A DNA stretch of 64,000 bases, from contig CANLOV010000005.1 in assembly GCA_947492955.1 (NCBI GenBank), positions 62,001 through 126,000 of the forward strand, written 5' to 3'. Below the pieces are notes generated by a model. That model was not told where the DNA came from. It saw only the letters and a list, made by a program, of their open reading frames with translations, and searched no databases. Source of the stretch: an uncultured Cellulophaga sp. Lineage in GTDB: Bacteria; Bacteroidota; Bacteroidia; Flavobacteriales; Flavobacteriaceae. Positions 6,524-30,506 of the stretch are shown in pieces. Positions within the stretch are counted from its first letter, which is position 1; each line of letters begins with the position of its first letter. A program made the position numbers and the translations under genes.

Positions 6524-6674
6524 TAAGTAAATATTTTCCTTTCTAAAGTTTAATAATGGATCTAATATTCTATAAATCAAATTACTGTTATTTGTTTTTT
6601 GATGGAGAGGTGAATATATTGAACGATTAAAGACAGCCTTTTTTATAGAACAGTAATTTTTAAAATCAATAAAA

Positions 6675-8274: not shown

Positions 8275-8940
8275 TTAAGACGTTTTTCTACCATCTAATA
8301 AATTAATTATTCTAGAGCCATAGGCTGCATTTTTTTCGGAGTGTGTTACTTGGATAATGGTAACGCCCTCTTTATTTAATTTTTTAAAGAGTTCCATAAT
8401 TTCTTCACTCTGCTTAGAATTAAGATTACCCGTTGGTTCATCTGCTAAAATTAATTTTGGGATAGCAATTAAAGCTCTAGCAACACCTACTAATTGTTGT
8501 TGCCCACCACTTAATTGAGCAGGAAAAAGGTCTTTTTTACCCACAATATTAAAACGGTCTAGCATATCTGCAACCATTGCTTTGCGCTCAGATGATTTGT
8601 ATTTTTTATACAATAATGGCATTTCTAAATTTTCTTTAACAGTAAGCTCATCTAATAAATGATAAGATTGAAAAACAAAACCGATATATTCTTTATAAAG
8701 GTTAGCGCGGTGTTTTTCTTTAAGCGTATGTACAGATTCATTTAAAAAATGATATTCACCTTCATCAAAATTATCTAACATACCAATAACATTTAGTAAA
8801 GTAGATTTTCCAGAACCAGAAGGCCCCATTATAGAAATAAATTCTCCTTCTTGTACAGAAAGGTTAATGTCTTTTAAAAGGAATATACGTTGCCCTCCAG
8901 AATTAACCCATTTAAAAATATTATTAAGTTGTAGTAGCAT
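8275..8940 (-). CDS. ABC transporter ATP-binding protein, LolD/MacB type (second ATPase of the array)
   Basis: The 221-residue ATPase has Walker A GPSGSGKS, a Q-loop FVFQS, Walker B LILADEPT and an H-loop VTHSEK. Its signature region reads LSGGQQQLVGVARA, where relatives have LSGGQQQRVAIARA; the usual arginine is replaced by leucine. The LSGGQ itself is intact, so hydrolysis should be possible. Proteins of this type power MacB/LolCDE/FtsX-like mechanotransmission exporters. It is the last gene of the long minus-strand run, 22 bases after the neighbouring permease, and probably serves one or more of the six permeases. Which ones it pairs with is not visible. Confidence 0.9.
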   Translation of the reverse strand: MLLQLNNIFKWVNSGGQRIFLLKDINLSVQEGEFISIMGPSGSGKSTLLNVIGMLDNFDEGEYHFLNESVHTLKEKHRANLYKEYIGFVFQSYHLLDELTVKENLEMPLLYKKYKSSERKAMVADMLDRFNIVGKKDLFPAQLSGGQQQLVGVARALIAIPKLILADEPTGNLNSKQSEEIMELFKKLNKEGVTIIQVTHSEKNAAYGSRIINLLDGRKTS

Positions 8941-8962
8941 TTTTCTTTTTTTATAGTATTAA

Positions 8963-11377
8963 TTATTCTGTTCTTAAATTTTTTGTTGGATTAGCATTAG
9001 CCGTTTTTAAACTTAATATTCCAATTATTAAAAAGGTAATCGTTAGCAGTGCTACTATGGATATAATAAAAGGTTGCGATGTAATATTTATTTTATAAGC
9101 ATAATTATATAACCATTCTTTCATAAAATAGAAAGCTAATGGAATAGCTATTATAGCTGCCGAAATAACAATAACACTAAATTCTTTAATGAATAAGAAA
9201 ATAATATTAAAAACGGAAGCCCCTAAAACTTTACGAATTCCCATTTCTTTTACTCTTTTATGAGCACTTAACGATACTAAGCTAATAATGCCCAATAACA
9301 CTATTATACAAGATAAGAAAGAAGCATAATACACTGCTTTTTTAAATCTAATCTCAGAAGCATATAATTTCTGTAAAGAGTCATCCATAAATTCATAATC
9401 AAAAACGCTATCAGGAAATAAAGTATCCCATTTATCATTAATAAGTGCAATGGTATTTTGCATATTTCCTGGGGATACTCTAAAATTTAAGTAGCGGTAT
9501 ATGGGAAAAGTTTTTAAATTAAAAAATGCTAGTGGCTCAATTTTTTGTTTTATGCTATCAAAATGAAAATCACCTACAATATTTTGTATCGTATAATTAT
9601 ATGTACCCCCTTTAATTTTAATTGTTTCACCTAAAGCATCTCTGGGGTTTTGCCAACCTAATGCTATTGCAGCTGCATTATTAATACTAATAGAATGCTT
9701 GGGTTTTATTTGAGTATTTAAGCTATCTATGATATCTACTTTATAGGTGTTAAAATAATGTTTGTCTACAACTAACGATTTCATGGGAATAGATGCCGTT
9801 TCTAGCTTGTTTATATTATGCATAGAAAAAATATTTCCAAAATTACCATTAGGAATTTCATGGGAAACCGAAGCTTTGGTAACCTGAGTCATCTTTTCAA
9901 ATTCGCTTCGTATAGTTTCTATTTTTTCAACTCCTTTATCGGTCCAGTCTCTGGGAGTTGGTACGGTTACAATATAGTCTTTGTTATAGCCTAAATCTTT
10001 TTTAAAAAAGTAATCTACCTGTTTGGTAATAATAAAGGCACTAATTAATAATAACAAGGCTATTGAAAACTGAAAACCAACCAAATATTTTTGAAAAACA
10101 GTATTTTTTGTTTGTATTTTTCCTTTTAAAGATTGTATAGATTTTAAGGACGATAAAATAAAAGCAGGGTACAATCCGGCTAATAAACTTACCAAGCCTA
10201 CAAACCCTATAAGAATAAAAACAATATAAAAAGAGAAAGATGATAATGTAGGAATGTCTGCACCAATGATTTGCCTAAAAACAGGTCGTAAAAAGATAAA
10301 AGCTACGATTGCTAATGTGGTTGCAAATAAGACTAGAATAAAAGATTCCGTTAAAAACTGAAAAATGAGTTGTTTTCGTTTACCACCTAATACTTTTCTA
10401 ACACCAATCTCTTTTATACGACTACCCGACATACTTATAGAGATATTTATAAAGTTAATAATGGCCATTAATAAAATAAAGCATCCGACTATGGATAAAG
10501 TATATAACATGCGTTTTATGGAGCCATTATCTTTTTCCAGATAAAAAGTGGATAATAAAGTGGGTTTTACCGTTAAATTTTCTGCGATTTCTTTAGAAGC
10601 ATGTTGTGAAAGAATATTTTTTATAGGTGTTTCTAACTCTTTTGCGGTAACCCCTTCTTTTAACTCAATAAAGGAGGGAATATAAATATTTGACCAATTT
10701 GTAAAACCGCCTCTATCAAAAAAAGTATACGTGCTTTCTGGGACAAAAATTTCTGGCATTAAACCGGTGTCTATATCATTTTCACTATTAATATTAACTA
10801 CAGAATTTTTAGGTAGTTCGTCTAAAACTCCAGTAATATTAAAAGGGTGTTTTTTGTTATTAAAATTCTCTAATACAATTGTTTTTCCAATAACATCATT
10901 AGTTTTGCCAAAAAATTTAAGAGCCATGTTTTTTGTTATTACAACAGAATAAGGCTCAGTTAAAGCAGTTTTAGAGTTTCCATATAATAGTTCAAAGCCA
11001 AACATAGTAAGTAAAGAATTGTCTACTATCTGTACATATTTTCTATAACGAATATCATTTTTTGAGGCTGTAGAAGAAATACCATCAAATCTATAATGGT
11101 TTTCTACTAAAGATGGATACTCTTCCTTTAATTGTTTAGCTAATGGTGCTACTGAAGTAAAATCTACGCCCATATTTGGGTCTTTCCAATCACTTAAAAG
11201 AATATACTGTCTATCGGCATTTTTAAGCTTTCTATTTACTTGTAATTCTCCCCATACATAAGTGCCAATTAACAGCGTAAACGTAATACCTGTAAATAAC
11301 CCAAGTATATTTATACCCGCATATAAACGATGTTTTTTAAGGTTTCTCCACGCGATTTTAAAATAGTTACGTATCAT
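8963..11377 (-). CDS. FtsX/MacB-type ABC permease 1 (double-core, 804 aa)
   Basis: The protein has the Bacteroidota double layout: an N-terminal cytoplasmic IAWRNL motif and membrane segment, a periplasmic MacB-PCD-like domain, a first FtsX core (three segments, about 285-430), a second periplasmic domain and a second FtsX core (about 680-800). Coupling-helix motifs are KEIGVRKVLGG in the first core and KEMGIRKVLGA in the second. The C-terminus reads NPTKNLRTE. Such permeases do not carry substrates across the inner membrane but transmit ATPase motion to the periplasm. It lies 22 bases upstream of the second ATPase and 12 bases after permease 2. Its first codons are identical at DNA level to those of permease 2. 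Substrate unknown. Confidence 0.92.
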   Translation of the reverse strand: MIRNYFKIAWRNLKKHRLYAGINILGLFTGITFTLLIGTYVWGELQVNRKLKNADRQYILLSDWKDPNMGVDFTSVAPLAKQLKEEYPSLVENHYRFDGISSTASKNDIRYRKYVQIVDNSLLTMFGFELLYGNSKTALTEPYSVVITKNMALKFFGKTNDVIGKTIVLENFNNKKHPFNITGVLDELPKNSVVNINSENDIDTGLMPEIFVPESTYTFFDRGGFTNWSNIYIPSFIELKEGVTAKELETPIKNILSQHASKEIAENLTVKPTLLSTFYLEKDNGSIKRMLYTLSIVGCFILLMAIINFINISISMSGSRIKEIGVRKVLGGKRKQLIFQFLTESFILVLFATTLAIVAFIFLRPVFRQIIGADIPTLSSFSFYIVFILIGFVGLVSLLAGLYPAFILSSLKSIQSLKGKIQTKNTVFQKYLVGFQFSIALLLLISAFIITKQVDYFFKKDLGYNKDYIVTVPTPRDWTDKGVEKIETIRSEFEKMTQVTKASVSHEIPNGNFGNIFSMHNINKLETASIPMKSLVVDKHYFNTYKVDIIDSLNTQIKPKHSISINNAAAIALGWQNPRDALGETIKIKGGTYNYTIQNIVGDFHFDSIKQKIEPLAFFNLKTFPIYRYLNFRVSPGNMQNTIALINDKWDTLFPDSVFDYEFMDDSLQKLYASEIRFKKAVYYASFLSCIIVLLGIISLVSLSAHKRVKEMGIRKVLGASVFNIIFLFIKEFSVIVISAAIIAIPLAFYFMKEWLYNYAYKINITSQPFIISIVALLTITFLIIGILSLKTANANPTKNLRTE

Positions 11378-11389
11378 TAATTATTTATT

Positions 11390-13750
11390 TTATTCCGTTC
11401 GCAAACTTTTTACTGGATTTACAATAGCAGCTTTTATTGCTTGATAACTCACTGTAATTAGCGCAATAGCCAAAGCAGATAAGCCTGCTAATACAAAAGT
11501 CCACCAAGAAATATGTATTCTATATGCAAATTCCTGAAGCCATTTATTCATCATATACCAGGAGATGGGCACGGCCAATACTATTGCTATACCAACCAAT
11601 TTCAGAAAATCTTTTGAAAGAAGTGTTGTTATACTTTGAACTGATGCTCCCAAAACTTTCCGGATACCTATTTCTTTAATTCTGTTTTCTGCCATGTAGC
11701 TTGCAAGCCCAAATAAGCCCAAACAACTAATGAAAATAGTAAGTAGAGTAAACAAACTTATTAAACTACTTGTTCTTTTTTCAGTATCGAATTTTTTAGC
11801 ATATACTTGATCTACAAATTCGTAATTGAAAGGATATTCGGGATTGTATTTTAGAAAAATTGCTTCAGCGTTTGCAAGACTTTCAGCAGTAGTTATTTTT
11901 TGGTTAAATTTAATATGAATTACATTGAACCATGCTTTTGCCCCTTCAATAACCATAGGTTCTACTTTTTGAAAAGGAGAATTTATAACAAAGTTTTTTA
12001 CTACTCCAACGATTCGCCAATCTATTCCGTTGTCTTTCACAATTTGCCCAATTGGATTCTCAAAATTCATGAGTTTTACCATAGATTCATTTACTATAGC
12101 AGCTGTAGAATCCGTTGGGTAAGTTTTCAAATCAAAATCACGACCTGCTATAATTTCCATTCTCATAGTTTTAGTTATGGCATCATCTGCAGCAAGCCTA
12201 TGAACCAATGTCATATTATCTTCACTTTTTCCTTTCCATTCAACCCCCCAAGTATTGCTCCAGGTTTCCGTTATTGGAGAATTGGTCTTGGTTACCGATT
12301 CAGCTATTCCAGAGGTAAGTAGTTCCTTTTTGATTGAAGAATAATTTTTCTCAATATCACCCTCCATAATCGTATATATCAAATTATGCTTTGAATAACC
12401 AGTTTGTCTGTCTTGCACCTTATTCAGTTGTTGTGTAACTATAATACTGGCTGTAATTAGAATAATCGCAGAAGAAAATTGTAATACAACTAAAACTTTA
12501 CGAGGTGTTACTGGGCTACTAATTTTTTTATAGGTTCCTTTTAATACAGTAGAAGGTTTAAATCTTGAAAGGTATAATGCGGGGTAACTGCCAGCCAAGA
12601 TTCCAGTAAATAAAATAACTCCGAATGCAGATAACCAAAACCAAACGTTTGTAATGTCTAGGGATATGGGTTTGGCTACAAGTGTACTAAAGGAAGGTAG
12701 CAAAGTTACCACAATCAAAAGTGCTAAGACACCTGAAATTGTAGAGATTAAAATTGATTCTCCTAAAAATTGACCAATTAGAAGTGGTCTTTCAGCCCCA
12801 ATTACTTTGCGTATACCAACTTCTTTGGCTCTTTTTTCACTTCGTGCAGTGCTAAGGTTCATGAAATTAATACAGGCTATAATTAAAATTATAGCTGCGA
12901 TGATACCAAACAATCTAATTACATCAATACGACCTCCTGTTTCCTTTCCATTTTCAAATTCTGAATACAAATACGACCTTGTGTAGGGGTATAGAAAAGT
13001 TTCCATCTCTGGAGATTCTTTATCATATGATTGTCGTAGTGTTTTTATTTTTTGGGAAAACGCATCATAATTTGTTTCTTCTTTTAATAAAACATAGGTG
13101 GCTACTGAATTATTACTCCAATTTTCATCGTGCCATCCCTTTTGCTTTAGATAGTTCCAAGGCATCAAAAATTCAAAATTAAATTCTGTGTTATTTGGTA
13201 AGTCCCTTAATACTCCTGATACCTTAAAAGTATCTACATTATCTACTTTTACTGTTTTACCAACCGCAGGCTCATTATTAAATAATTTTTTTGCAAAGGT
13301 TTCGGTGATTACGACCGAATTAACATCTTCTAACACCTTATCAATACTACCTTCTACCAATGGAAAACTAAATATATTTAAAAAGTCAGGGTCTACCATT
13401 GTACCTGTAGATTTTATTCTTTTATCACCAATCGAAAACAGAAAGGTATTATCATAATTATATCTTGATACACTTTCCACTTCTGGATAGTCTTTTTTAA
13501 TGATAGAGCCCATTATTTTTGGAGTAGAGTTCCACGTCCATATTTCACCATCTACAAAATATTCGTTGTAGACTTCGTAAATTCTATCTTTCTTTTCATG
13601 AAATTGATTAAACCCAAGTTCAAAGCTTATCCAAATCGAAATAATAGCTGTTACTGATAACCCTATAGAGAGACCAACAATATTAAGAATAGAAAAACTT
13701 TTATTTCTTAGTAAATTCCGCCACGCGATTTTAAAATAGTTACGTATCAT
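11390..13750 (-). CDS. FtsX/MacB-type ABC permease 2 (double-core, 786 aa)
   Basis: It has the same double FtsX plan as its neighbours, with an IAWRNL start, coupling motifs KEVGIRKVIGA (first core) and KEIGIRKVLGA (second core), and the C-terminal NPVKSLRTE signature. It groups by these signatures with permeases 5 and 6 and, more loosely, permease 1. Its 5' coding end shares an uninterrupted 32-base identity with permease 1 (13721-13752 versus 11348-11379), pointing to duplication or gene conversion. It lies 12 bases before permease 1 and 30 bases after permease 3 in transcription order. Length is normal and no frameshift is seen. Probably mechanotransmission export; substrate unknown. Confidence 0.92.
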   Translation of the reverse strand: MIRNYFKIAWRNLLRNKSFSILNIVGLSIGLSVTAIISIWISFELGFNQFHEKKDRIYEVYNEYFVDGEIWTWNSTPKIMGSIIKKDYPEVESVSRYNYDNTFLFSIGDKRIKSTGTMVDPDFLNIFSFPLVEGSIDKVLEDVNSVVITETFAKKLFNNEPAVGKTVKVDNVDTFKVSGVLRDLPNNTEFNFEFLMPWNYLKQKGWHDENWSNNSVATYVLLKEETNYDAFSQKIKTLRQSYDKESPEMETFLYPYTRSYLYSEFENGKETGGRIDVIRLFGIIAAIILIIACINFMNLSTARSEKRAKEVGIRKVIGAERPLLIGQFLGESILISTISGVLALLIVVTLLPSFSTLVAKPISLDITNVWFWLSAFGVILFTGILAGSYPALYLSRFKPSTVLKGTYKKISSPVTPRKVLVVLQFSSAIILITASIIVTQQLNKVQDRQTGYSKHNLIYTIMEGDIEKNYSSIKKELLTSGIAESVTKTNSPITETWSNTWGVEWKGKSEDNMTLVHRLAADDAITKTMRMEIIAGRDFDLKTYPTDSTAAIVNESMVKLMNFENPIGQIVKDNGIDWRIVGVVKNFVINSPFQKVEPMVIEGAKAWFNVIHIKFNQKITTAESLANAEAIFLKYNPEYPFNYEFVDQVYAKKFDTEKRTSSLISLFTLLTIFISCLGLFGLASYMAENRIKEIGIRKVLGASVQSITTLLSKDFLKLVGIAIVLAVPISWYMMNKWLQEFAYRIHISWWTFVLAGLSALAIALITVSYQAIKAAIVNPVKSLRTE

Positions 13751-13780
13751 TATTATTTACTTTTTAGTATCTGCTTTTGT

Positions 13781-16213
13781 TTATTCTTCTCGAATAATAG
13801 TTGCAGGGTTATGTTTTAAAACTTTTATAACAAAGTATAAAATATTGCATAGAGCAATAGTTAGTATTAGGGCTACAGCAATAATAAATTCAGTACTATG
13901 GAGTTCTATTTTATAAGCAAAATTATTAAGCCAATTTTTTAGAAAATACCATGCTATAGGAGCAGCTATGCAACCTGCTATTATAATGAGTTTTATAAAG
14001 CTTTTAGACATTAGAACAAAAACAGCTTTATTATTTGCTCCTAAAACTCTTCTAACACTTATCTCTTTTAATTTTTCTGTAGTAGTAAGAGAAATCATAG
14101 CCACAAGCCCTAAATTGGCAATTAAAATGGCTAATATGGTAAGTGCATTAAAAATAGCACCAAATTGTTTGTATTTTAGGTATTGTTGGTTAAAGTAAGT
14201 ATCAGAAAAGTGCGTTAGATAAGGATCTTCGGGGTAAATTTCTTCCCATGTAGATTTTATAAATGCAATTTGTTTAGATAGGTTTTTTGGGTCTAGTTTT
14301 ACTAAATAATATCCAAACTCATTAGGGTGTCTGTTAGCAAAGAATGTAGGTAAAATAGATTCTGATAAGGATTTCATATGAAAATTAGCAGTTACTCCTT
14401 TTATTTTCCATTCTCCATTTCCTAAAATTATAGATGCACCAATAGCATCTTTAGTAGTATTAAAACCTAATAATTTTCTTGCTTTATCATTAATTATAAT
14501 CTCGTTTTTCTGACGCTTTTCATCTTTTTCAAAATTTCCGCCTGCTAATATTTTTGCTTCATAAACAGGAAAAAAACCTTCGTCTACATGTCGTAGTTCT
14601 ATTTTGGATTGTATGTCTTCTCCTTCTTTAAGCCGAACACTATTATATCTAAAACGGTTTTCTTGCCCTGGAATATTAAAACAAGAAGCAACCTCTTTTA
14701 AAGCAGGGTTTTTTAATAGTTCTTGTTTAAAGAGATTATATTTTTGTGTTTTAAAATTAACCTTGTCATAATCGTCCCATGCAGCATTTAAAGTAGTTGG
14801 TCCTTGAAGTATTAGTACCTGGTTATTGTTAATTCCCAAATCATAATTCTCCATAAAATGTACTTGTTGGTACACTATATAAGCACCTATTGTAAGAAAG
14901 ATAGAGGCACAAAACTGGCCTACTAATAAACCTTTCTTTATATAGGTATTACTAGATTTACCTCTAATGATTTTACCTTTAATAGCAGTAGTTACATTTA
15001 CAGAAGTAAGAACAAATGCAGGATAAAAACTCACCAAGAAAACACAAATACTAAAAATAACAATAGCCCATAACCAAAAAATAGGGCTTAACAGCATGCT
15101 AAAATTAAGAGATATGTTAAAGGTCTCTTCTATAAAAGAATGACTCATAAATACTAGTATAGCAGCTGGTAGTAAGGCACTTATATTTAGTAAGAAAGCT
15201 TCTACAAAATATTGAATTTTTAATTGGTAGGTAGATGCTCCAAAAGTTTTTCTAACACCTGTATCTTTGGCTTTTCTAATAGATAATGTAGTGCTGAGGT
15301 TAATAAAATTAATAAAGACAATTAATAATATAGCTACGCCAATACCAATGATAATATAAATTTGATTTAGGCTTCCGTTTACTTCTATCTCATCGGAGTA
15401 ACTAGAATTTAAATGAATATCTTTTATAGGTTGTACTATAAATTCTAATTTTTCACCATCATTATCGCTAGGCTTTACACGTGATAGTGCTAAATTATTT
15501 AATGCTTGCTCTATAGTTTTTTTAGAATGTGTATCGTTAGTAGCAATATAATTGTAGTAAGCATTATTGTTCCAATTCCCTTTTTCTGGAATCCAATTAT
15601 AATATACAAAGGTTTTTAAGGTGGTTAGGTACTCGTATTTAAAATGGGTATTTGCAGGCGGGTCTTTAACAACACCCGTAATTTCAAAAGGCATTCCCTC
15701 ATTTACTTTTACTATTTTTCCAATAGGATTTTCGTTTCTAAATAGCGCATAAGCTTTAGATGCTGTTATTACCATTTTTAAAGCCCCGTCTAACGCTGTT
15801 TCTGGATCTCCGGCAATTAATGTTCCTTTAAAAATTTTTAAGAAGTCTTTATCTACCCAATATACTTTTTGGTCGGCATATTTTTTATACTCGCTTATAA
15901 CTAAACAAGGTTCAAAATAGGCTCTGGTAGCGTAATCTATAAAAGGAACCTCATCGGATACAACTTGTGCTAACCTATCTGGTCCTTTTGTGCCTTCCTG
16001 AATTACTTTTTCATTTTTAGACCTTTTTGTAATAACTCTATAAACTTGATCTACGTTTTCTATATGGTTTTCATAAGAAAACTCAAAATAAACATAGCCT
16101 AAGAGTAGTATACAGGTAGCAAAGCCTATAGCTAAACCACCTATATTAATAGCTGTAAAAAATTTTTCGCGTTTAAAAACTCTTAATGCAAGTTTTAAAT
16201 TATTTTTAAGCAT
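13781..16213 (-). CDS. FtsX/MacB-type ABC permease 3 (divergent subgroup, 810 aa)
   Basis: This is a double FtsX permease that departs from the IAWRNL group: its N-terminus reads LKLALRVFKREKFF and its C-terminus NPATIIREE. Coupling motifs are KDTGVRKTFGA in the first core and KEISVRRVLGA in the second, both variant relative to permeases 2, 5 and 6. The periplasmic domains are also distinct in sequence. It is intact and full length. Together with permease 4 it forms a second subtype inside the array, compatible with the presence of two ATPases and possibly two heteromeric complexes. That partition is inference. It lies 54 bases after permease 4. Confidence 0.9.
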   Translation of the reverse strand: MLKNNLKLALRVFKREKFFTAINIGGLAIGFATCILLLGYVYFEFSYENHIENVDQVYRVITKRSKNEKVIQEGTKGPDRLAQVVSDEVPFIDYATRAYFEPCLVISEYKKYADQKVYWVDKDFLKIFKGTLIAGDPETALDGALKMVITASKAYALFRNENPIGKIVKVNEGMPFEITGVVKDPPANTHFKYEYLTTLKTFVYYNWIPEKGNWNNNAYYNYIATNDTHSKKTIEQALNNLALSRVKPSDNDGEKLEFIVQPIKDIHLNSSYSDEIEVNGSLNQIYIIIGIGVAILLIVFINFINLSTTLSIRKAKDTGVRKTFGASTYQLKIQYFVEAFLLNISALLPAAILVFMSHSFIEETFNISLNFSMLLSPIFWLWAIVIFSICVFLVSFYPAFVLTSVNVTTAIKGKIIRGKSSNTYIKKGLLVGQFCASIFLTIGAYIVYQQVHFMENYDLGINNNQVLILQGPTTLNAAWDDYDKVNFKTQKYNLFKQELLKNPALKEVASCFNIPGQENRFRYNSVRLKEGEDIQSKIELRHVDEGFFPVYEAKILAGGNFEKDEKRQKNEIIINDKARKLLGFNTTKDAIGASIILGNGEWKIKGVTANFHMKSLSESILPTFFANRHPNEFGYYLVKLDPKNLSKQIAFIKSTWEEIYPEDPYLTHFSDTYFNQQYLKYKQFGAIFNALTILAILIANLGLVAMISLTTTEKLKEISVRRVLGANNKAVFVLMSKSFIKLIIIAGCIAAPIAWYFLKNWLNNFAYKIELHSTEFIIAVALILTIALCNILYFVIKVLKHNPATIIREE

Positions 16214-16267
16214 AATTTTAAATTATTTGTTAGCGTGTTTTTTGTTGTTATTCTCATTTTTTCTGTT

Positions 16268-18703: not shown

Positions 18704-18718
18704 ATTTCAAAAATTCTA

Positions 18719-21085: not shown

Positions 21086-21110
21086 GATTAATGATTTTTT
21101 TGATGATGAT

Positions 21111-23510: not shown

Positions 23511-23562
23511 GATAGTTCGTTTTTTGATTAATGATGATGATTAATGAATAAACTCTTTACAT

Positions 23563-24258
23563 TTAAATGGTAGCTCCTATAGCCCTATTTTGACTTTCTG
23601 TTATAATTTGACCATCAAAAAGATTTACTACCCTGTGCGCGTAATGAGAATCTCTGTCTGAGTGTGTTACCATTACTATGGTAGCTCCTTCTTGGTTTAG
23701 CTCTGTTAAAAGATTCATTACTTCAATACCGTTTTTAGAATCTAAGTTTCCTGTAGGTTCATCTGCCAAAATAAGTTTAGGATTGGTAACAACTGCTCTT
23801 GCTATAGCTACACGCTGTTGTTGTCCTCCAGATAATTGTTGTGGAAAATGTTTTTCTCTGTGCGCAATTTTCATACGCTCTAAAACTGCCATTACTTTTT
23901 TCTTACGCTCTGCTTTACTCATTTTTAAATAAATTAAAGGCAGCTCTACATTTTCATATACCGTAAGCTCATCAATTAAATTAAAACTTTGGAAAACAAA
24001 ACCTAGATTTCCTTTACGTAATTGTGTGCGTTGGCTTTCTTTTAGGTTTGCAACCTCATGTGTAGCAAAAACATAGCTCCCTTCTGTTGGGTTATCTAAC
24101 ATGCCTACAATATTTAGTAAAGTAGATTTTCCACATCCAGATGGCCCCATTATAGCTACAAATTCTCCTTGCTCTACTTTTAAGTTTACATTGTTTAGCG
24201 CTAATGTTTCTACTTCTTCAGTTCTAAAACTTTTCTTTAAGTTCTTTATCTGTATCAT
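23563..24258 (-). CDS. ABC transporter ATP-binding protein, MacB/LolD type (first ATPase of the array)
   Basis: The 231-residue ATPase has canonical motifs throughout: Walker A GPSGCGKS, Q-loop FVFQSFN, signature LSGGQQQRVAIARA, Walker B LILADEPTGN and H-loop VTHSDR. It is typical of the type VII ABC superfamily (LolD, MacB NBD, FtsE). The stop of the preceding secreted-protein gene is 2 bases away, so translation may be coupled. It is most likely the energising subunit for permease 6 and perhaps other permeases downstream. A second ATPase with a variant signature closes the same run at 8275. Confidence 0.95.
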   Translation of the reverse strand: MIQIKNLKKSFRTEEVETLALNNVNLKVEQGEFVAIMGPSGCGKSTLLNIVGMLDNPTEGSYVFATHEVANLKESQRTQLRKGNLGFVFQSFNLIDELTVYENVELPLIYLKMSKAERKKKVMAVLERMKIAHREKHFPQQLSGGQQQRVAIARAVVTNPKLILADEPTGNLDSKNGIEVMNLLTELNQEGATIVMVTHSDRDSHYAHRVVNLFDGQIITESQNRAIGATI

Positions 24259-24260
24259 TT

Positions 24261-24908
24261 TTATTTTTTTATACTTAAGTTTTTATATCTGCCAGATGAG
24301 TTATAACCTGTCCATAGACCTATTTTATCTGATTTAGTTTCTGTTAGTCTTGTTACTACTAAATCGGGTTTTTGAGATTCGTTTACAAATACCCTAACTT
24401 CTTTTTCTTTAATAATTATTTTTACAGAAAACCAATAATCTGGATTAGGTGGGTTTGCAATTTCATTTTCGTATTCCCCTGTTTTTTCTGTTCTTAATTT
24501 TTTCCAAGTATATTCTGGATGGTATATGTATTGAACCATATGTTTTTTACGTGCTTTTTCTGTTGCTTTAAAATTAAATGGCCTAAAATAGATGGCCTCA
24601 TAGGTAGAATCGTTTTGTATGTTAAACGCAATACCAACAAAGCTTCTTCCGCGTAAATTCTTGCCAGCTAGTTCTAATTTAATTTCTCCTTTTGTAAAAG
24701 AAACATTCTCTAAAACACCTATACCGTCGCCAATTTTACTATTAATAAATAATGCTTTTTTATTAAGTGAATCAAGGTTTATATCTCTATTAATTGCTTT
24801 TATTGCATTTTTTTTAAAGTTTTTAGTAAGCGATATTTTCTGTGCTTTTACAGTAAAACTTGTTAATGAAATGAATAGTATGCTTAGTAAAAGATGGTGT
24901 TTTTTCAT
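24261..24908 (-). CDS. secreted beta-sandwich-like (DUF1080/LamG-type) protein inside the export operon
   Basis: The 215-residue product has a signal peptide (1-22, ending VKAQ). The mature part shows the alternating pattern of concanavalin-like sandwiches: GRSFVGIAFNIQNDSTYEAI, then YFRPFNF, a YHPEYTWKKLR segment, a WFSVKIIIKEKEVRVFVN strand pair, and a terminal DKIGLWTGYNSSGRYKNL. This resembles DUF1080/LamG-type carbohydrate-associated domains, but I see no catalytic residues and the fold assignment is by pattern only. It sits 12 bases after hlyD and 2 bases before the ATPase, which is unusual for a MacAB-TolC-type operon and suggests a periplasmic accessory or substrate-binding role. That role is inference. 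Confidence 0.7.
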   Translation of the reverse strand: MKKHHLLLSILFISLTSFTVKAQKISLTKNFKKNAIKAINRDINLDSLNKKALFINSKIGDGIGVLENVSFTKGEIKLELAGKNLRGRSFVGIAFNIQNDSTYEAIYFRPFNFKATEKARKKHMVQYIYHPEYTWKKLRTEKTGEYENEIANPPNPDYWFSVKIIIKEKEVRVFVNESQKPDLVVTRLTETKSDKIGLWTGYNSSGRYKNLSIKK

Positions 24909-24920
24909 GTTTGTTACTTT

Positions 24921-26171
24921 TTATTTTAATACAATTTGTTCTGCATCTCCAAAATTATCATAGCTACTGGTAATTATTTTTTCATCGGCATCTAAACCTT
25001 CCAATACTTCGTAGTACCTAGAGTTTTGTTTTCCTATTCTAATAGTTCTTTTTATAGCTTTTTCTTCTTCCGAGTCAACCACAAAAATCCATTGTCCTCC
25101 GGTACTTTGAAAAAAGCTTCCTTTAGGGATTAATAAAGCATCATTAGAAGCTCCTAGTTGTAATTTAATATTATAGCTCTGCCCTGTACGTATAGTTGTT
25201 GGCCTATTTTCGGTAAATACTAAATCTACTTTAAATTTTCCGTTACGAACTTCTGGGTATACCTTACGTAGTCTTAAGTTATAAAGTTTTTCGTTTCTTT
25301 CCAATACTGCGGTTAAGCCTCTTTTAACACGATCTATATAGTGCTCATCAATATCTGCTTCAATTTTATAATTGGTTAATACATTTATTTGACCTATGCG
25401 TTGTCCTTTAGATATATTTTGTCCTATTTCAGCATCTAAAAACCCTAATTGACCATCTGCGGGTGCTCGTACATTTAAATGATCTAACCTTTCATATACC
25501 ATAGATAAGGTTTTTTGCATTCTACTTAGATCAGTATCTAAACTAGATAAAGAGGTTTTCCTTAATTTATCATCTTGTATGGTTTGTAGTTTAATTATTT
25601 CGTGCTGTTTTTTAGATAATTCATAATCTTCTTTTGCGGTTAAATAGGCTTCTTTAGCTATTAATTCATCTTTATATAATTCGCTATTTTGTTCAAAAGT
25701 TCGTTTTAGGCGTATTAAATTATATTTTGCATCTGCCAATGATTTTCTTCCGTTTACTTGCCTAGTATCAAAAGTTAGTTTTGTAGATCTAAGGTCGTTT
25801 TGTTTTAATGCTAAATTACTTTCACTTGCTAATATTTGCTCATATAAATTAGTGTTTTCTAGTTTTAAGATAATATCTCCTTTTTTAACCATAGCACCTT
25901 CTTCAATTAATTTTTCGGTAACTCTACCACCCTCGTAAGCATCCATATATATGGTGGTAATAGGAGCAACTAGCCCGTTAATAGCTATATAATCGTCGAA
26001 CTTTCCCTGAGTAACTTTTGCAATAGATAGTTTCTCCTTTTCGGTTCTAAAAGTTTTAGCAGAATTTCCAAAAATTATTTTCCATCCCATAAAAAGTAAA
26101 AACAACCCTAAAACAATGTATCCGTAGTGTTTTGGGCGTAATCCTTTTTTCTTCTCTAATTGTATATCCAT
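24921..26171 (-). CDS. HlyD/MacA-family periplasmic adaptor
   Basis: The 416-residue protein has a short cytoplasmic tail, one membrane segment (about 16-34), a lipoyl half-motif around YEGGRVTEKLIEEGAMVKKG, a coiled-coil hairpin (about 105-220), the second lipoyl half at VRAPADGQLGFL, then beta-barrel and membrane-proximal domains ending near IVLK. This is the membrane fusion protein of tripartite efflux, linking the inner-membrane permease to TolC. It starts 6 bases after the tolC-like gene and precedes the secreted sandwich protein by 12 bases. Only one adaptor is present for six permeases. Confidence 0.92.
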   Translation of the reverse strand: MDIQLEKKKGLRPKHYGYIVLGLFLLFMGWKIIFGNSAKTFRTEKEKLSIAKVTQGKFDDYIAINGLVAPITTIYMDAYEGGRVTEKLIEEGAMVKKGDIILKLENTNLYEQILASESNLALKQNDLRSTKLTFDTRQVNGRKSLADAKYNLIRLKRTFEQNSELYKDELIAKEAYLTAKEDYELSKKQHEIIKLQTIQDDKLRKTSLSSLDTDLSRMQKTLSMVYERLDHLNVRAPADGQLGFLDAEIGQNISKGQRIGQINVLTNYKIEADIDEHYIDRVKRGLTAVLERNEKLYNLRLRKVYPEVRNGKFKVDLVFTENRPTTIRTGQSYNIKLQLGASNDALLIPKGSFFQSTGGQWIFVVDSEEEKAIKRTIRIGKQNSRYYEVLEGLDADEKIITSSYDNFGDAEQIVLK

Positions 26172-26177
26172 TGTGTA

Positions 26178-27533
26178 TTAGTAAGTATCATTAATATTAA
26201 AAACAGGTAAGCCCATATAAAAATCTAAGGTGCTTTTGTTAACTTTTAACCTTGTTTCTACCTGTAAGTTTTTATTTTGTGCATCTACAAAAAGGTTTTT
26301 TGCTGTAAATAATTCTAAAGTAGTAATTAGTCCTTTTTCATATTTTTTTTGCGCAATAGAAAAGGCCAATTGCTGTAGTTGTACTTGTGAATTACTCTGA
26401 GCTAATTCTGTAATTAAAGAATTGTTATCCAATATTAATTGTTGTATAGTTTTATAGAGTTCTTGCTTTTGCATACTTAAATTATTTTTTGCCTGTAAGT
26501 GTGCTATTTTTTGTTGTTTTATTCTGGAACGGGCAGACCATTTATTACTAATGGGAATTCTTAAGGATACACCAACAAACCTAGAGGCATTGTCTTTTAT
26601 TTGTGTTCTAAAAGGAATAACTTCTCCAGTATCATCATTTGTATTGGTTTCATAATATCCTGTTCCATATCCTGCGTTTAAGGATAATGAAGGAGATAGG
26701 TTTCCTTTGCTTATGGCTACATTTTTTTTTGCTGCTTTTGTTCTTAATTCTTGTGCTTTTATTAAGGGAATAAAATTTTTAGCCTTATAAAATACAGAGT
26801 CTTGTTCTAAGCTAGTTGTTTCTTTAGTATTTAGTTTAACCAAGCTAGGTTGTATGTTAATACCATTGGGTTCTTCTAAATTCATTTCTTGTAGTAGTGT
26901 TAAACGGTTGGCTTGTAAGCTATTTTTGTTTTGAACAACTGTAAGTTGATCGCTTAACCATAAAGATTCTGCTTCGTACAAATCTGCGCCAGCTTTTAAG
27001 CCAAGTTCAATTTGTTTTTTTACCAATTCGTAGTTTGTTTTAGAAATAGCTTGTTGCTCTATAGAAATTGCTAATAGCCCTTCTGAAAATTGAATATTGT
27101 AAAAAGCTGTCATTACTCTAAATGCTAAAAGATATTTTTGTTGTTCTATATCTTTTATGGCGGCTTTGTATAAAAATTTGGAGACTTTAATAGTGTTTAA
27201 TTTCTGAAAGCCTTGAAATAAATCTAGCGATGAGTTAAGCGAATAATTATTGTAGAAAAAATCAGAATTTACAAAAGTACCAGTATTTGGGTTTTCCGAT
27301 CGACCAAAGCGAAGTCCATAATCTGAGGATCCAGAAATGCCCGGCAATAAATCTCTAATAGCTTGCCTGTGGGTTTCTTTATTAGAATTTTTGTTAAACT
27401 CTAAATCTTTAATCCTTAGGTTGTTATTAATAGCGTAAGTAATGCAATCGTCTAAAGACCATGTTTGCTGAGCTAATAGAGATTTAGATACTAATAATAG
27501 TATAAATAATAAGAGTCCACTTTTAAGTTTCAT
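26178..27533 (-). CDS. TolC-family outer-membrane efflux protein
   Basis: The outer-membrane component (about 450 residues) has a signal peptide and two repeats of the OEP helical/beta pattern, for example LNNSLDLFQ-like and RVPISNKWSAR-like segments, with long helices rich in Q, N and L. I start at the ATG at 27533 because MKLKSGLLLFILLLVSKSLL is a clean signal peptide; an in-frame ATG at 27560 would add nine residues (MIPKMILQP). It is the first gene of the long minus-strand run and starts about 260 bases from the divergent activator gene. Family call is firm; the start is less sure. Confidence 0.88.
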   Translation of the reverse strand: MKLKSGLLLFILLLVSKSLLAQQTWSLDDCITYAINNNLRIKDLEFNKNSNKETHRQAIRDLLPGISGSSDYGLRFGRSENPNTGTFVNSDFFYNNYSLNSSLDLFQGFQKLNTIKVSKFLYKAAIKDIEQQKYLLAFRVMTAFYNIQFSEGLLAISIEQQAISKTNYELVKKQIELGLKAGADLYEAESLWLSDQLTVVQNKNSLQANRLTLLQEMNLEEPNGINIQPSLVKLNTKETTSLEQDSVFYKAKNFIPLIKAQELRTKAAKKNVAISKGNLSPSLSLNAGYGTGYYETNTNDDTGEVIPFRTQIKDNASRFVGVSLRIPISNKWSARSRIKQQKIAHLQAKNNLSMQKQELYKTIQQLILDNNSLITELAQSNSQVQLQQLAFSIAQKKYEKGLITTLELFTAKNLFVDAQNKNLQVETRLKVNKSTLDFYMGLPVFNINDTY

Positions 27534-27574
27534 TGGTTGTAGTATCATTTTCGGTATCATTCTTCACTAATTTT

Positions 27575-27613
27575 TAGAATGATGGTACCAAAAGCTATTC
27601 TATTAGTATGCCA
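27575..27613 (-). promoter_or_regulatory. two weak -24/-12-like (sigma-54) candidates upstream of the tolC-led operon
   Basis: Reading the minus strand, TGGCATACTAATAGAA (27613-27598) and TGGTACCATCATTCTA (27590-27575) both carry a good -24 half (TGGCA, TGGTAC) but poor -12 halves (TAGA, TTCT instead of TTGC). They are noted because the divergent gene is a sigma-54 activator. The evidence is weak. Confidence 0.25.
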
Positions 27614-27696
27614 TGATTTTAATTAATTAAAAATCAGTCATTTATGTGTTTTTGTTTCGTTTTGTAAAATTTATATTGTAAAATAGTTGTACAGAT

Positions 27697-27717
27697 AGTG
27701 TCTAATAATTGGACACT
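27697..27717. promoter_or_regulatory. AGTGTC-N9-GACACT dyad, candidate activator-binding site
   Basis: This 21-base dyad has 6-bp perfect arms (27697-27702 and 27712-27717) and internal AA/TT symmetry. It lies between the divergent tolC-led operon and the NtrC-type activator gene, 79 bases before the activator start. The position and symmetry fit an upstream activating site for that dimeric protein. On the plus strand the right arm runs into TGGACACTTTTTTGAA (27710-27725), a -24/-12-like sequence with GA for GC. Confidence 0.45.
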
Positions 27718-27795
27718 TTTTTGAAAACATGAATTTCGATTTGTAGTTTTAGAAGTGCTTTGTAAGTACAATTATTTATTAGACGTAGTTTTTTT

Positions 27796-29160
27796 ATGAT
27801 TGATGGTAAAATTTTAGTGATAGATGACAACAAGAGTATTTTAAGCGCTTTAGAGATTTTATTGCAGTTTGAATATAAGCAGGTAAATACTATTTCTAAT
27901 CCAAATCAGATTACGTCATTTCCCAATTTAAAAGAATTTGATATTGCGCTATTAGATATGAATTTTTCTGCAGGCGTAAATACAGGAAACGAAGGTTTGT
28001 ACTGGCTAAGAGAACTAAAGAAAAAAGCGCCACATATTTCGGTAATTATGATGACGGCTTATGGTGCTGTAGATTTAGCAGTACAGGCTTTAAAAGAAGG
28101 AGCAGCAGATTTTGTTTTAAAACCTTGGAATAACGAAAAGTTACTGGTAACAGTAAAATCGGCATATTCGTTAAGGCAATCTAGGCAAGAGATACAACAA
28201 TTAAAAAAGAAAGAAAGTCATTTAAAACAAGTAATAAATCAGGATAAAAACTACATCATAGGAGCATCTAAGTCCTTAACTAAGGTGTTAAATCTTACCA
28301 GAAAAGTAGCAAAGACAGATGTAAATGTTTTAATTACAGGAGAAAATGGTACAGGAAAAGAACTTATTGCTCGCGAATTACATAGAATGTCTCATAGAAA
28401 AGAAGAAGTTTTTATAGGAGTAGATATGGGGTCTATTTCTGAAAATTTATTCGAAAGTGAGCTTTTTGGGCATACAAAAGGAGCTTTTACAGATGCCAAA
28501 GAAGACCGTGCAGGTAAATTTGAAGCAGCTAATGGAGGAACATTGTTTTTAGATGAAATAGGAAACCTATCATTACAAACACAAGCAAAACTATTATCGG
28601 CTATTCAAAATAAAGTAGTAGTAAGAGTAGGCTCTAATAAACCCATACCTGTAGCTATTAGATTGGTATGTGCTACTAATTGTAATTTAGATGCAATGGT
28701 AGCAGAGGGACTTTTTAGAGAAGATTTATTATACCGTATAAATACCATACATATAGAAGTTCCTGCTTTGCGAGACCGAGAGGGGGATGTATTGGTATTA
28801 GCCGATTTTTACTTAAAACGCTTTGCAAATAAATACGATAAGGCCGGACTAAGAATTAATAGTATGGCTCAAGAAAAATTATTAGAATATACTTGGCCCG
28901 GAAATGTTAGAGAGCTGCAACATACCATAGAAAGAGCTGTAATTTTATGCGAAGGAAATGTGTTAAAACCAACCGATTTTTTATTGAACACCAATACAAA
29001 AATGACATTGGAAACGGGTCCTGCTACTTTAGATGAAATGGAACAGTTTATGATCACAAATGCGTTAAATAAACACGATGGTAATTATAGTGCAGCAGCA
29101 AATGAATTAGGAATTTCTAGGCAAACACTCTACAATAAGTTAAAAAAGAATAAAAAATGA
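27796..29160 (+). CDS. sigma-54-dependent response regulator, NtrC family
   Basis: The 454-residue protein has a receiver domain (about 1-125; D10/D11, phosphoacceptor D54, T87, K109), an AAA+ domain (about 150-385) with Walker A GENGTGKE (183-190) and Walker B TLFLDE, and a Fis-type helix-turn-helix near NYSAAANELGISRQTLY. The sigma-54 contact loop reads GAFTDA (229-234) instead of GAFTGA, a variant I know to be common in this phylum. It should activate sigma-54 promoters when phosphorylated by the kinase encoded immediately downstream, whose ATG overlaps this stop codon by 4 bases. The divergent export operon is the likely target. Confidence 0.95.
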   Translation: MIDGKILVIDDNKSILSALEILLQFEYKQVNTISNPNQITSFPNLKEFDIALLDMNFSAGVNTGNEGLYWLRELKKKAPHISVIMMTAYGAVDLAVQALKEGAADFVLKPWNNEKLLVTVKSAYSLRQSRQEIQQLKKKESHLKQVINQDKNYIIGASKSLTKVLNLTRKVAKTDVNVLITGENGTGKELIARELHRMSHRKEEVFIGVDMGSISENLFESELFGHTKGAFTDAKEDRAGKFEAANGGTLFLDEIGNLSLQTQAKLLSAIQNKVVVRVGSNKPIPVAIRLVCATNCNLDAMVAEGLFREDLLYRINTIHIEVPALRDREGDVLVLADFYLKRFANKYDKAGLRINSMAQEKLLEYTWPGNVRELQHTIERAVILCEGNVLKPTDFLLNTNTKMTLETGPATLDEMEQFMITNALNKHDGNYSAAANELGISRQTLYNKLKKNKK

Positions 29161-30506
29161 TAGCTAGCAAAAGTTTTTATTTTCAGCTTATTTTTAGGGT
29201 TGTAATGATATCCGTAACAGCGTTAGTTACGGCTTTTTTGTATACAATTAACTATGTTATTTTTTCTTTTTTTGTTGGTATAACTATTGTTTTTCAGACC
29301 TTATTTTTAATTAAATATGTAAATACAACTAATACTAAAATAGCTTATTTCTTTAATTCTATTAAGAACGAAGATTTTACGTTACGGTTTCCCGAAAATG
29401 TAAATAATAAGTCATTAAAAGAATTGAATCAAAGCCTTAATATGTTTAATGGCATGATTCAGGAAGTTTATATAAAAAACCAATCTCAAGAGCAATATTA
29501 CCAAGAAATTTTAAAGCAAGCAGCCATTGGAATTTTAACATTGAATGATAGAGGTCATATTCTTTTTGCAAATCCTACAGTTGAAAAATTATTAAATTAT
29601 ACGCCTCTTAACCATATAAAACAGCTGCAACAGATAGATACTAAATTGTATAATTTATTTGTAGATTTAAAACCTTTTGAACGAAAATTATTTGAATTAA
29701 CTAATGAAAGAGGGAAAAGGCAATTGGCATTAAAATCTACAGCAATAAGCTTAAATAAAGAAGCTTTGTTATTGGTTGTAATACAAGATATACATAAGGA
29801 ATTAGATGAAAAAGAAGCCGATTCTTGGGAGCGCCTTATTAGAGTATTAACCCATGAGATAATGAATAGTGTTGCTCCTATAACCTCCATATCAGAATCA
29901 ATCTTAAAATACTTTAAAAAACAAGAAGAATTGGTGTCTATAGATGTGTTTAACGAAAATCATTTAAAAAACACGGCGAAAGGCTTAGAAGTAATTAAAG
30001 ACCAAGGAAATAATTTAATGAGTTTTGTACAATCGTACAGAAGCTTTTTAAATGTACCCAAACCAGATAAAGAAATTGTTTTAGCACAAAAATTATTAGA
30101 GAAGGTTAAGGTATTAATGATGCAGCAGCATAATACAATTACTTTTAATATAGTTACAGAACCAGATGATTTAGAGTTTTTTGTAGACGAAAAGTTAATT
30201 ATGCAAGTGCTTATAAATTTAAGTAAAAACGCCTATGAATCTATTAAAAATAAAGAGGATGGACTTATTAAAATTATAGCAGGAATTAATAATGAAGGAA
30301 AGAAATATATTGAGGTATATGATAATGGCCTTGGAATACCAGAAGACTTATTAGATAAAATTTTTATCCCTTTTTTTACTACTAAAAATACAGGAACAGG
30401 TATTGGTTTAAGTTTATCTAAACAAATTTTAAGAATGCACGATGGTACTTTAAAGGTAGTTTCTATTCCAAATAAAGAAACTAAATTTAGTATGGTTTTT
30501 AATTAA
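29157..30506 (+). CDS. sensor histidine kinase (PAS-like domain, NtrB type)
   Basis: The 449-residue protein has two membrane segments (about 10-30 and 34-52) with almost no periplasmic loop, a PAS-like domain (about 118-220; AAIGILTLNDRGHILFANPT), a dimerisation/phosphoacceptor region with H-box LTHEIMNSVAPI, and an HATPase domain with N-box NLSKNAYES, G1 DNGLGIP and G2 GTGIGLSL. The lack of a large periplasmic sensor suggests it senses a membrane or cytoplasmic signal, perhaps envelope stress. It is translationally coupled to the NtrC-type regulator (4-base overlap). Its stop lies 4 bases from the convergent ABC ATPase gene with no visible terminator. Confidence 0.95.
   Translation: MIASKSFYFQLIFRVVMISVTALVTAFLYTINYVIFSFFVGITIVFQTLFLIKYVNTTNTKIAYFFNSIKNEDFTLRFPENVNNKSLKELNQSLNMFNGMIQEVYIKNQSQEQYYQEILKQAAIGILTLNDRGHILFANPTVEKLLNYTPLNHIKQLQQIDTKLYNLFVDLKPFERKLFELTNERGKRQLALKSTAISLNKEALLLVVIQDIHKELDEKEADSWERLIRVLTHEIMNSVAPITSISESILKYFKKQEELVSIDVFNENHLKNTAKGLEVIKDQGNNLMSFVQSYRSFLNVPKPDKEIVLAQKLLEKVKVLMMQQHNTITFNIVTEPDDLEFFVDEKLIMQVLINLSKNAYESIKNKEDGLIKIIAGINNEGKKYIEVYDNGLGIPEDLLDKIFIPFFTTKNTGTGIGLSLSKQILRMHDGTLKVVSIPNKETKFSMVFN

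Follow-up and report, generated by a model that had tools for sequence, protein, structure and literature searches.

A recurring transporter frame with a variable row of double-FtsX permeases in Cellulophaga and its relatives

In the transporter MacB, the ATPase and one four-helix half of the permease reside on a single chain. In the DarBCD system, darobactin precursor and radical-SAM genes adjoin the transporter genes, and the name ADOP denotes orphan permeases with no ATPase nearby. Here we analyze a stretch of 64,000 nt (the window; contig CANLOV010000005.1, positions 62,001 to 126,000) from the 3.87 Mb genome of an uncultured Cellulophaga sp., in which six permease genes (P1 to P6) lie in a row together with genes for two ATPases, a HlyD-type adaptor and a TolC-type duct, beside a divergent NtrC/NtrB gene pair (27796-30506). 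The minus-strand run of 11 open reading frames (ORFs) extends from 27560 down to 8275 in the order tolC, hlyD, a gene for a 215-aa protein, ATPase1, P1 to P6 and ATPase2, and the gaps between the genes are 22, 12, 30, 54, 15, 25, 52, 2, 12 and 6 nt long (Table 1). An earlier note, made from the letters of this DNA, had read the run, its six intact permeases of 786-811 aa with two FtsX domains each, its two different ATPases (52% identical to each other), adaptor, duct and regulator pair correctly; its title inventory covered these main parts but left the 215-aa protein, one of the 11 genes (24261-24908), unnamed.

The closest described systems share some of these parts but not the row of permeases. 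The P1 model resembles the YbbAP-TesA system of Escherichia coli in its single pseudo-symmetric permease chain with two MacB-like halves, a separate ATPase and two coupling helices, but has eight transmembrane (TM) helices where YbbP has ten, and the YbbAP complex consists of one permease and one kind of ATPase without TolC, HlyD or NtrBC (PMC12646458). With MacAB-TolC the array has in common the tripartite set of parts, the periplasmic and FtsX domains of MacB and MacB among the top PDB matches, but differs in its separate ATPases and the two FtsX halves per permease chain. Similar to BceAB-BceS (PMC7828314), an FtsX-type permease stands beside a kinase without an evident sensor domain, and BceAB is among the PDB matches; the NtrC-type activator, TolC, HlyD and the row of permeases (eight TM helices in the P1 model) set the window apart. 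The ADOP model TIGR03434 was the best NCBIfam model for all six permeases and matched most of them nearly over the full length, with scores (193.7-303.3 bits) below the curated cut-off of 622, but the window permeases are not orphan, having ATPases at both ends and the adaptor and duct genes adjacent. The DarBCD models (NF038008, NF038010, NF038007) describe the same kinds of part and were the best ones for both ATPases (DarD) and the adaptor (DarC) and second for the permeases (DarB), again below the cut-offs (DarB 110-146 vs 700, DarC 208 vs 450, DarD 249 and 299 vs 375 bits).

Frame and permease set in related genomes

Array genes were read in 26 genomes of the family (window included), in 11 other genomes of the phylum and at 80 named loci surrounding relatives of P1, with up to 10 kb of flanking sequence; genomes carry G numbers and named loci L numbers. 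Runs of such genes recur in relatives, which argues against a chance assembly, and the common order is a divergent NtrB-NtrC pair, HlyD, ATPase1, the permeases and mostly ATPase2. In the type A layout, TolC precedes HlyD as in the window, and in type B a weak TolC relative follows ATPase2. The conserved part is this chassis and the varying part is the permease set, a division that is invisible from one genome: arrays contain 1 to 27 permeases, and their number, kind and order vary between relatives. Identity of NtrC ranged from 72 to 99% over 12 frames of type A, and the window shares 79% (NtrC), 76-80% (HlyD), 87-89% (ATPase1) and 85-86% (ATPase2) identity with the six array-bearing congeners, with none of which it has a permease in common at 50% identity or more. 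G019 and G017 have frames that are 78-96% identical and share three permeases between arrays of 10 and 5. The 133 permeases of the 26 family genomes fall into 55 families at 50% identity, 34 of them with a single member. The combination of a frame with a variable permease array is practically certain. We found no description of such arrays in the literature searched, most subscription papers falling outside its coverage.

The distribution of the arrays is patchy. With P4 as query (1e-20), matches were obtained in 20 of 60 family genomes of different genera and in 7 of 18 congeners, the own genome included in both cases (6 of 17 others). Five of the six array-bearing congeners share the chromosomal flank, consisting of genes for an ABC ATPase, a prolyl oligopeptidase and argC, and the contig of the sixth (G071) stops before it. 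Ten of 11 array-less congeners were examined at this site (G073 was left out); seven have only three small genes between the flanking genes, in one the contig ends, and two hold other genes there. In the window itself, glycerate kinase and sulfatase genes (5393-8150) separate the array from the conserved flank; they are missing at the compact site of the seven array-less congeners. In a tree of the frames, the window groups with L066 and L118, with a support of only 0.76.

Beyond the family, P1 had matches at 1e-80 in 51 of 198 phylum genomes (own included, at least 90% complete, at most five candidates scored per genome). Eleven of these, selected because each gave several matches, were read. 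The order is unchanged in G141, G218 and G202, whose arrays contain 9, 14 and 9 permeases, respectively, and the start of the array agrees in G206 and G196. In G171, HlyD and ATPases accompany three permeases in a row, and G188 and G265 show ATPase2 only. Some observations count against a universal chassis. Permeases without chassis in the stretch read were found in G129, G119 and G268, weaker matches in Mucilaginibacter, Chitinophaga, Terrimonas, Dyadobacter, Runella and others were single permeases or permease rows whose flanks lacked a chassis, and in G021 and G057 a permease is placed between HlyD and ATPase1, contrary to the common order. The chassis-linked form recurs across the phylum, yet is not the sole form there.

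A shared-chassis system with exchangeable permeases is probably the best explanation of these observations. The frame comprises a kinase without evident sensor domain, a sigma-54 activator, HlyD and ATPase1, usually joined by TolC and ATPase2. Each permease would dock separately on the common ATPases (an ATPase1/ATPase2 heterodimer or an ATPase1 homodimer), adaptor and duct, yielding a set of pumps that differ in specificity. A shared adaptor and duct had also been proposed in the earlier note, and one of each does lie beside the array; their actual sharing is presumed. The transporters might report their load to the kinase, and the activator would then turn on the operon, as in BceAB-BceS. 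As the least certain step, the substrates may be noxious envelope-active molecules, and exchange of permeases would retune the repertoire. For two Dyadobacter genomes, 28 and 33 copies of such permeases have been noted (PMC11573002). For the unexplained expansion of such permeases in Bacteroidota, a recurring chassis with variable cartridges offers a testable design, and the arrays may be regarded as natural swap experiments on substrate choice by type VII permeases.

Putative control and possible roles

The neighboring NtrBC pair very likely controls the array. That the two-component system is dedicated to it, as had been claimed, agrees with the retention of the pair in most relatives and with the dyads and the -24-like element that lie between tolC and ntrC, the control itself being predicted. 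The activator has the receiver, sigma-54 interaction AAA+ and Fis-type helix-turn-helix (HTH) domains (Pfam) that define the NtrC type, and rpoN is present in the genome. The kinases of the window and of the listed frames have two close N-terminal hydrophobic segments according to hydropathy, and Pfam detected no sensor domain in the window kinase, which would suit a putative intramembrane-sensing kinase with two TM helices, a minimal loop and no extracytoplasmic domain. The motif TGGCAY occurs in 48 of 56 promoter gaps of frames (a few genomes counted twice), compared to 35 of 145 intra-array gaps of 80-600 nt and 17 of 336 control gaps, the control gaps being longer on average than the internal ones (208 vs 148 nt). 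A dyad was present in 29, 23 and 20 of these gaps, respectively, and both elements together in 26, 21 and 0. Among the sites that match TGGCAY, 98-100% have T at position 12 and 58-66% have G at position 14, the next base being C, T or A. The combined promoter pattern of the window has two matches in the genome, one here and the other inside an ORF. Two points weaken the promoter evidence: the dyad patterns were written after viewing the alignments, and TGGCAY-N7-G[CT] was found in 22 of the 56 frame promoters and in a single gap each among the 145 internal and the 336 control gaps, the window having GA at this place. The -24 half and the dyad are supported, and the -12 half appears degenerate, above all inside arrays. 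Enrichment of sigma-54 control for this permease class in Bacteroidia has already been published (PMC12316311), and the window may provide a concrete operon behind it.

A role in efflux or envelope defense is tentatively favored over housekeeping because of the variable periplasmic faces, the patchy distribution, the exchange of permeases, the likely inducible promoter and the presence of a duct, but we would put it slightly short of an even chance. A library of defense systems gave no match for three permeases, the accessory protein and the kinase, and generic ATPase matches for the two ATPases. It is rather unlikely, judging by analogy, that the permeases additionally act as co-sensors. The same degree of doubt applies to a far-reaching extension, by which Bacteroidota would possess a modular repertoire comparable to immunity or glycan-use cassettes, with an inducible chassis, exchangeable receptor-transporter permeases each sensing for the shared kinase, an asymmetric ATPase pair and an envelope defense retuned by gene swaps.

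Alternatively, the permeases might serve envelope housekeeping by moving endogenous lipids, lipoproteins or envelope proteins, some of them to enzymes encoded between the permease genes, in the way YbbAP has been proposed to feed TesA. Arrays of several relatives indeed contain such genes: esterases (G019, L066), an alpha/beta-hydrolase (G018), an S41 peptidase together with a DUF4440 protein beside ATPase1 (G017), and DUF2807 (GIN domain) proteins between permeases (G064, at L009 13602-14354, G018 and G019). In two distant arrays, a PF00756 esterase is encoded directly upstream of the P4 relative (L066, 12421-13263; G019, L021 10762-11589), which is reminiscent of YbbAP-TesA, and YbbAP, the top full-length fold match, works with the periplasmic esterase TesA (PMC12646458). 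Against this, the window array has no esterase before P4 and no such enzyme at all, matches at 1e-20 were limited to six of the 17 other congeners and to 20 of the 60 genera sampled (own included), and the content varies within the genus, as would not be expected of a housekeeping task. We consider housekeeping unlikely. Export of the cell's own products, in analogy to darobactin export by DarBCD, is suggested by the best models for the ATPases and the adaptor and the second-best one for the permeases, but all scores stayed below the curated cut-offs, no biosynthetic enzyme or radical-SAM domain was detected by Pfam among seven scanned neighbors (small precursor ORFs were not sought), and up to 27 permeases would demand equally many products, which makes this alternative quite improbable.

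Single-chain permeases and two kinds of ATPase

The AlphaFold2 model of P1, one of the six permeases (80 alignment rows; pLDDT 87.4, pTM 0.82), has eight long TM helices, two coupling helices and two periplasmic domains. Its first full-length match in Foldseek was E. coli YbbAP (E 3.6e-20, TM 0.46), followed by MacB, a Porphyromonas gingivalis permease domain, LolCDE and BceAB. In a profile search, MacB ranked first, matching with half of the profile to the second half of the chain, and YbbP was also found. Pfam detected the FtsX domain twice in each of the six permeases, and MacB_PCD twice in four of them (P1, P3, P4, P5) but only once in P6 and in P2, the latter with a weak second stretch; together with the large domain between TM helices 1 and 2 of the P1 model, this places them among type VII (MacB/FtsX) permeases. 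Similarity between the N- and C-terminal halves had a z of 2.6 for P3 and of 5 to 24 for the other five, in line with a one-chain pseudo-dimer. Across 79 representatives, conservation peaks at the two termini and in the two coupling helices, and the lowest blocks (0.7-1.0) are periplasmic; some periplasmic blocks reach moderate values (up to 1.8), and low values (1.1-1.35) also occur in two blocks of the TM region. The YbbAP study describes YbbP as a pseudo-symmetric chain with one YbbA engaged at each of its two coupling helices (PMC12646458), and a review considers BceAB-type permeases presumably as single units and states that the coupling helices of MacB/FtsX permeases touch their own ATPase only (PMC8277102). 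Because of the pseudo-dimeric P1 model, the likeness to YbbP and this review, each permease is most simply regarded as one transporter, and the permeases likely act singly. Two points weaken this conclusion: the structural case is built on the model of P1, and a second periplasmic domain of P6 was not detected by Pfam.

The earlier note had suggested heteromeric or combinatorial complexes, in which different permeases pair around one adaptor, an idea favored by the presence of six dissimilar permeases beside only one adaptor and one duct in the run. Such pairing is not needed, as every chain already holds two FtsX halves, P1 was modeled as a single-chain pseudo-dimer with eight TM and two coupling helices, its best full-length match is the one-chain YbbP, and loci with a single permease exist (G005, G025, L070). 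Heteromers are therefore very improbable and the least needed part of the note, whose shared chassis and dedicated control are better supported. Its division of the permeases by their termini (P1, P2, P5 and P6 vs P3 and P4) did not yield natural groups, since P1, P2 and P5 share 38-40% identity, and P6, which has the same termini, shows only 30-31% identity to these three, a distance like that separating P3 and P4 from the remaining permeases (27-31%).

The two ATPases differ in a consistent way. Alignment of 70 ATPase1 and 50 ATPase2 sequences with more than 60% identity to those of the window (some genomes represented twice) revealed 25 fixed or nearly fixed differences, of which R vs L after LSGGQQQ and D vs N in the D-loop were without exception, the ATPase2 changes being present in 50 of 50. 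In seven of eight ATPase2 copies from elsewhere in the phylum, the D-loop residue is N or H and LSGGQQQ is followed by L, I or V; the eighth, a fragment, was unreadable. Altered D-loops can mark asymmetric ABC dimers. In our reading of the sequences, ATPase2 may be a specialized partner of ATPase1, with the chances for and against an ATPase1/ATPase2 heterodimer about balanced. Clustering of the coupling helices, meant to reveal two classes that match the two ATPases, gave no split following ATPase2. Two ATPase2-like genes lie within one array in L078 and in L165 (G196). The conserved ATPase with altered D-loop offers material for studying asymmetric ABC engines.

Arrays closed by ATPase2 contained from 2 (L086) to 27 (G018) permeases, the one in G018 that a stretch edge had cut having been checked. 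In G005, G025, G001, G011, G033 and G021, with 1-3 permeases, there was besides ATPase1 nothing with more than 46% identity to ATPase2 (matches to 1e-50). At 29 of the 80 named loci the array was complete within the flanks; 26 of these end in ATPase2 (2-8 permeases) and three lack it there (1 or 2 permeases). Array size was associated with ATPase2 (42 arrays with, 6 without; Mann-Whitney p 0.00014, uncorrected for kinship, with near-identical strains included and long arrays of named loci missed at 10 kb flanks). Contigs end in or near the array in G015, G016, G037 and G057, and the test omitted G016, G057, G015, L070 (one permease, no ATPase2 in the flank) and the named copies of G genomes. 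Against a link between long arrays and ATPase2 stands G016, in which ATPase2 was not found (matches to 1e-50) beside at least five permeases; its contig ends, and it would be a counter-example if complete. Since some genomes, G016 among them, were without ATPase2, a heterodimer is not obligatory.

Origin and probable exchange of permease genes

Expansion and decay of tandem copies that have little function is hardly conceivable as an explanation, since, despite variable copy numbers and the close paralogs and fragments with stops in G016, the median identity within genomes is 31%, the closest relatives mostly lie elsewhere and the coupling helices are conserved. Recent tandem duplication was rejected as source of the six window permeases, which share 27-40% identity among themselves and have their closest relatives (65-94%) in other genomes. 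Only 15 of 584 permease pairs within genomes reach 50% identity, and the closest relative belongs to the own array for 18 of 488 unique permeases (503 before dropping identical ones) and for none of the six in the window. The earlier note would have abandoned its view for recent duplicates with no conserved order elsewhere: the six are not recent duplicates, but copy number and order are indeed not conserved. In G016, one contig of the pair C158 and C194 has permease matches with several in-frame stops and the other four array permeases that group at 50%, which appears from the sequences to be a case of local duplication and decay.

Comparison with relatives makes it likely that whole permease genes were exchanged between arrays. 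At the DNA level, P2 is 93.3% identical between the window and L141, an array of an uncultured Maribacter, compared to 81.2% for P1 and 79.6% for ATPase2, the other common genes. In a second Maribacter array (L066), P4 reaches 86.3% compared to 82.1% for P1, 80.9% for ATPase1, 78.8% for ATPase2, 75.8% for NtrC, 74.5% for HlyD and 66.2% for TolC, and the aligned P4 block begins 3 bases ahead of the start codon and ends at the stop codon. Between the type B arrays of G017 and G044, one permease is 86% identical vs 71% for HlyD and 68% for NtrC. Among the close kin G063, G064, G065, G067 and G072, single permeases were gained and lost; G064 and G067 differ by one permease, the missing stretch running from one gene start to the next, at which the two genes have about 90 bases in common. 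The ends of the window permease genes form direct repeats, and silent-site identity within arrays rises slightly at the gene ends (0.367 and 0.357 vs 0.312 in the second periplasmic domain; 0.284, 0.302 and 0.278 for the same regions between genomes), all descriptive values.

Other results argue for caution. Strong signals of exchange are few, and the route of recombination is only hinted at by the sequences. In type A pairs, common permeases are mostly less identical than HlyD (medians 62-75% in HlyD bins of 75-90%), so that most sharing could reflect old vertical inheritance and loss. Because permeases are usually less similar than HlyD, as in fast vertical change, we claim exchange for the listed cases only.

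Several further candidates were dropped. A search for intragenic chimeras at the protein level gave 810 hits, which were dominated by the generally conserved C-terminus and uninformative. At the DNA level there were seven hits; four were taken as artefacts of overlapping ORFs, and of the remaining three, G021 and G016 contribute 3' ends and L144 a 5' end. A transferred 3' end in the L141 neighbor upstream of P2, suspected because the BLAST block extended into that gene, was discarded with only 31-42 matches per full 60-column block. Outliers in permease vs HlyD identity (1013 of 1953 array pairs) were not accepted as proof of transfer, because the 40 listed ones have HlyD identities of 36-41% and were read as type A-type B pairs. 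A plasmid search with P4 as the only query returned 19 records, every one below 60% identity.

Table 1. Positions in the window of the array, its regulators and predicted control elements.
Feature	Position	Strand	Evidence
NtrB-type histidine kinase: PAS, HATPase, two close N-terminal hydrophobic segments	29157..30506	+	Pfam, hydropathy, kept in frames
NtrC-type sigma-54 activator: receiver, AAA+, Fis-type HTH	27796..29160	+	Pfam
Candidate activator-binding palindrome AGTGTC-N9-GACACT	27697..27717	.	sequence, dyads of relatives, genome pattern search
Second dyad TGTA-N9-TACA	27677..27693	.	sequence
Sigma-54-like promoter: -24 TGGCAT, N7, GA at -12 place (canonical GC absent)	27599..27613	-	
Outer-membrane duct, TolC family	26178..27560	-	Pfam OEP
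Periplasmic adaptor, HlyD/MacA/DarC-like	24921..26171	-	Pfam, NCBIfam
Accessory protein, 215 aa, apparent signal peptide, lectin/glucanase-like beta sandwich (low-confidence model)	24261..24908	-	
ATPase1: LSGGQQQR, D-loop D	23563..24258	-	Pfam, NCBIfam, alignment
Permease P1, 799 aa	21111..23510	-	closest relative 87%, L141
Permease P2, 788 aa	18719..21085	-	closest relative 94%, L141
Permease P3, 811 aa	16268..18703	-	closest relative 67%, G017
Permease P4, 810 aa	13781..16213	-	closest relative 89%, L066
Permease P5, 786 aa	11390..13750	-	closest relative 82%, L074
Permease P6, 804 aa	8963..11377	-	closest relative 65%, L106
ATPase2: LSGGQQQL, D-loop N	8275..8940	-	Pfam, alignment

The accessory 215-aa protein matched PF06439 below the cut-off, and its AlphaFold2 model (pLDDT 65) was lectin/glucanase-like according to Foldseek; among the loci read, relatives occur in G019, L098 and L132 and, weakly, in G119. 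Past the ATPase2 end of the array, at a distance of a few genes, L009 (G064; region 1288365-1290782) and its kin carry another NtrB/NtrC-like pair (29% and 38%). The genome of the window contains a second cluster on the minus strand (G000:C2:33673-40108), with four half-size MacB_PCD permeases (frames of 413-435 aa).

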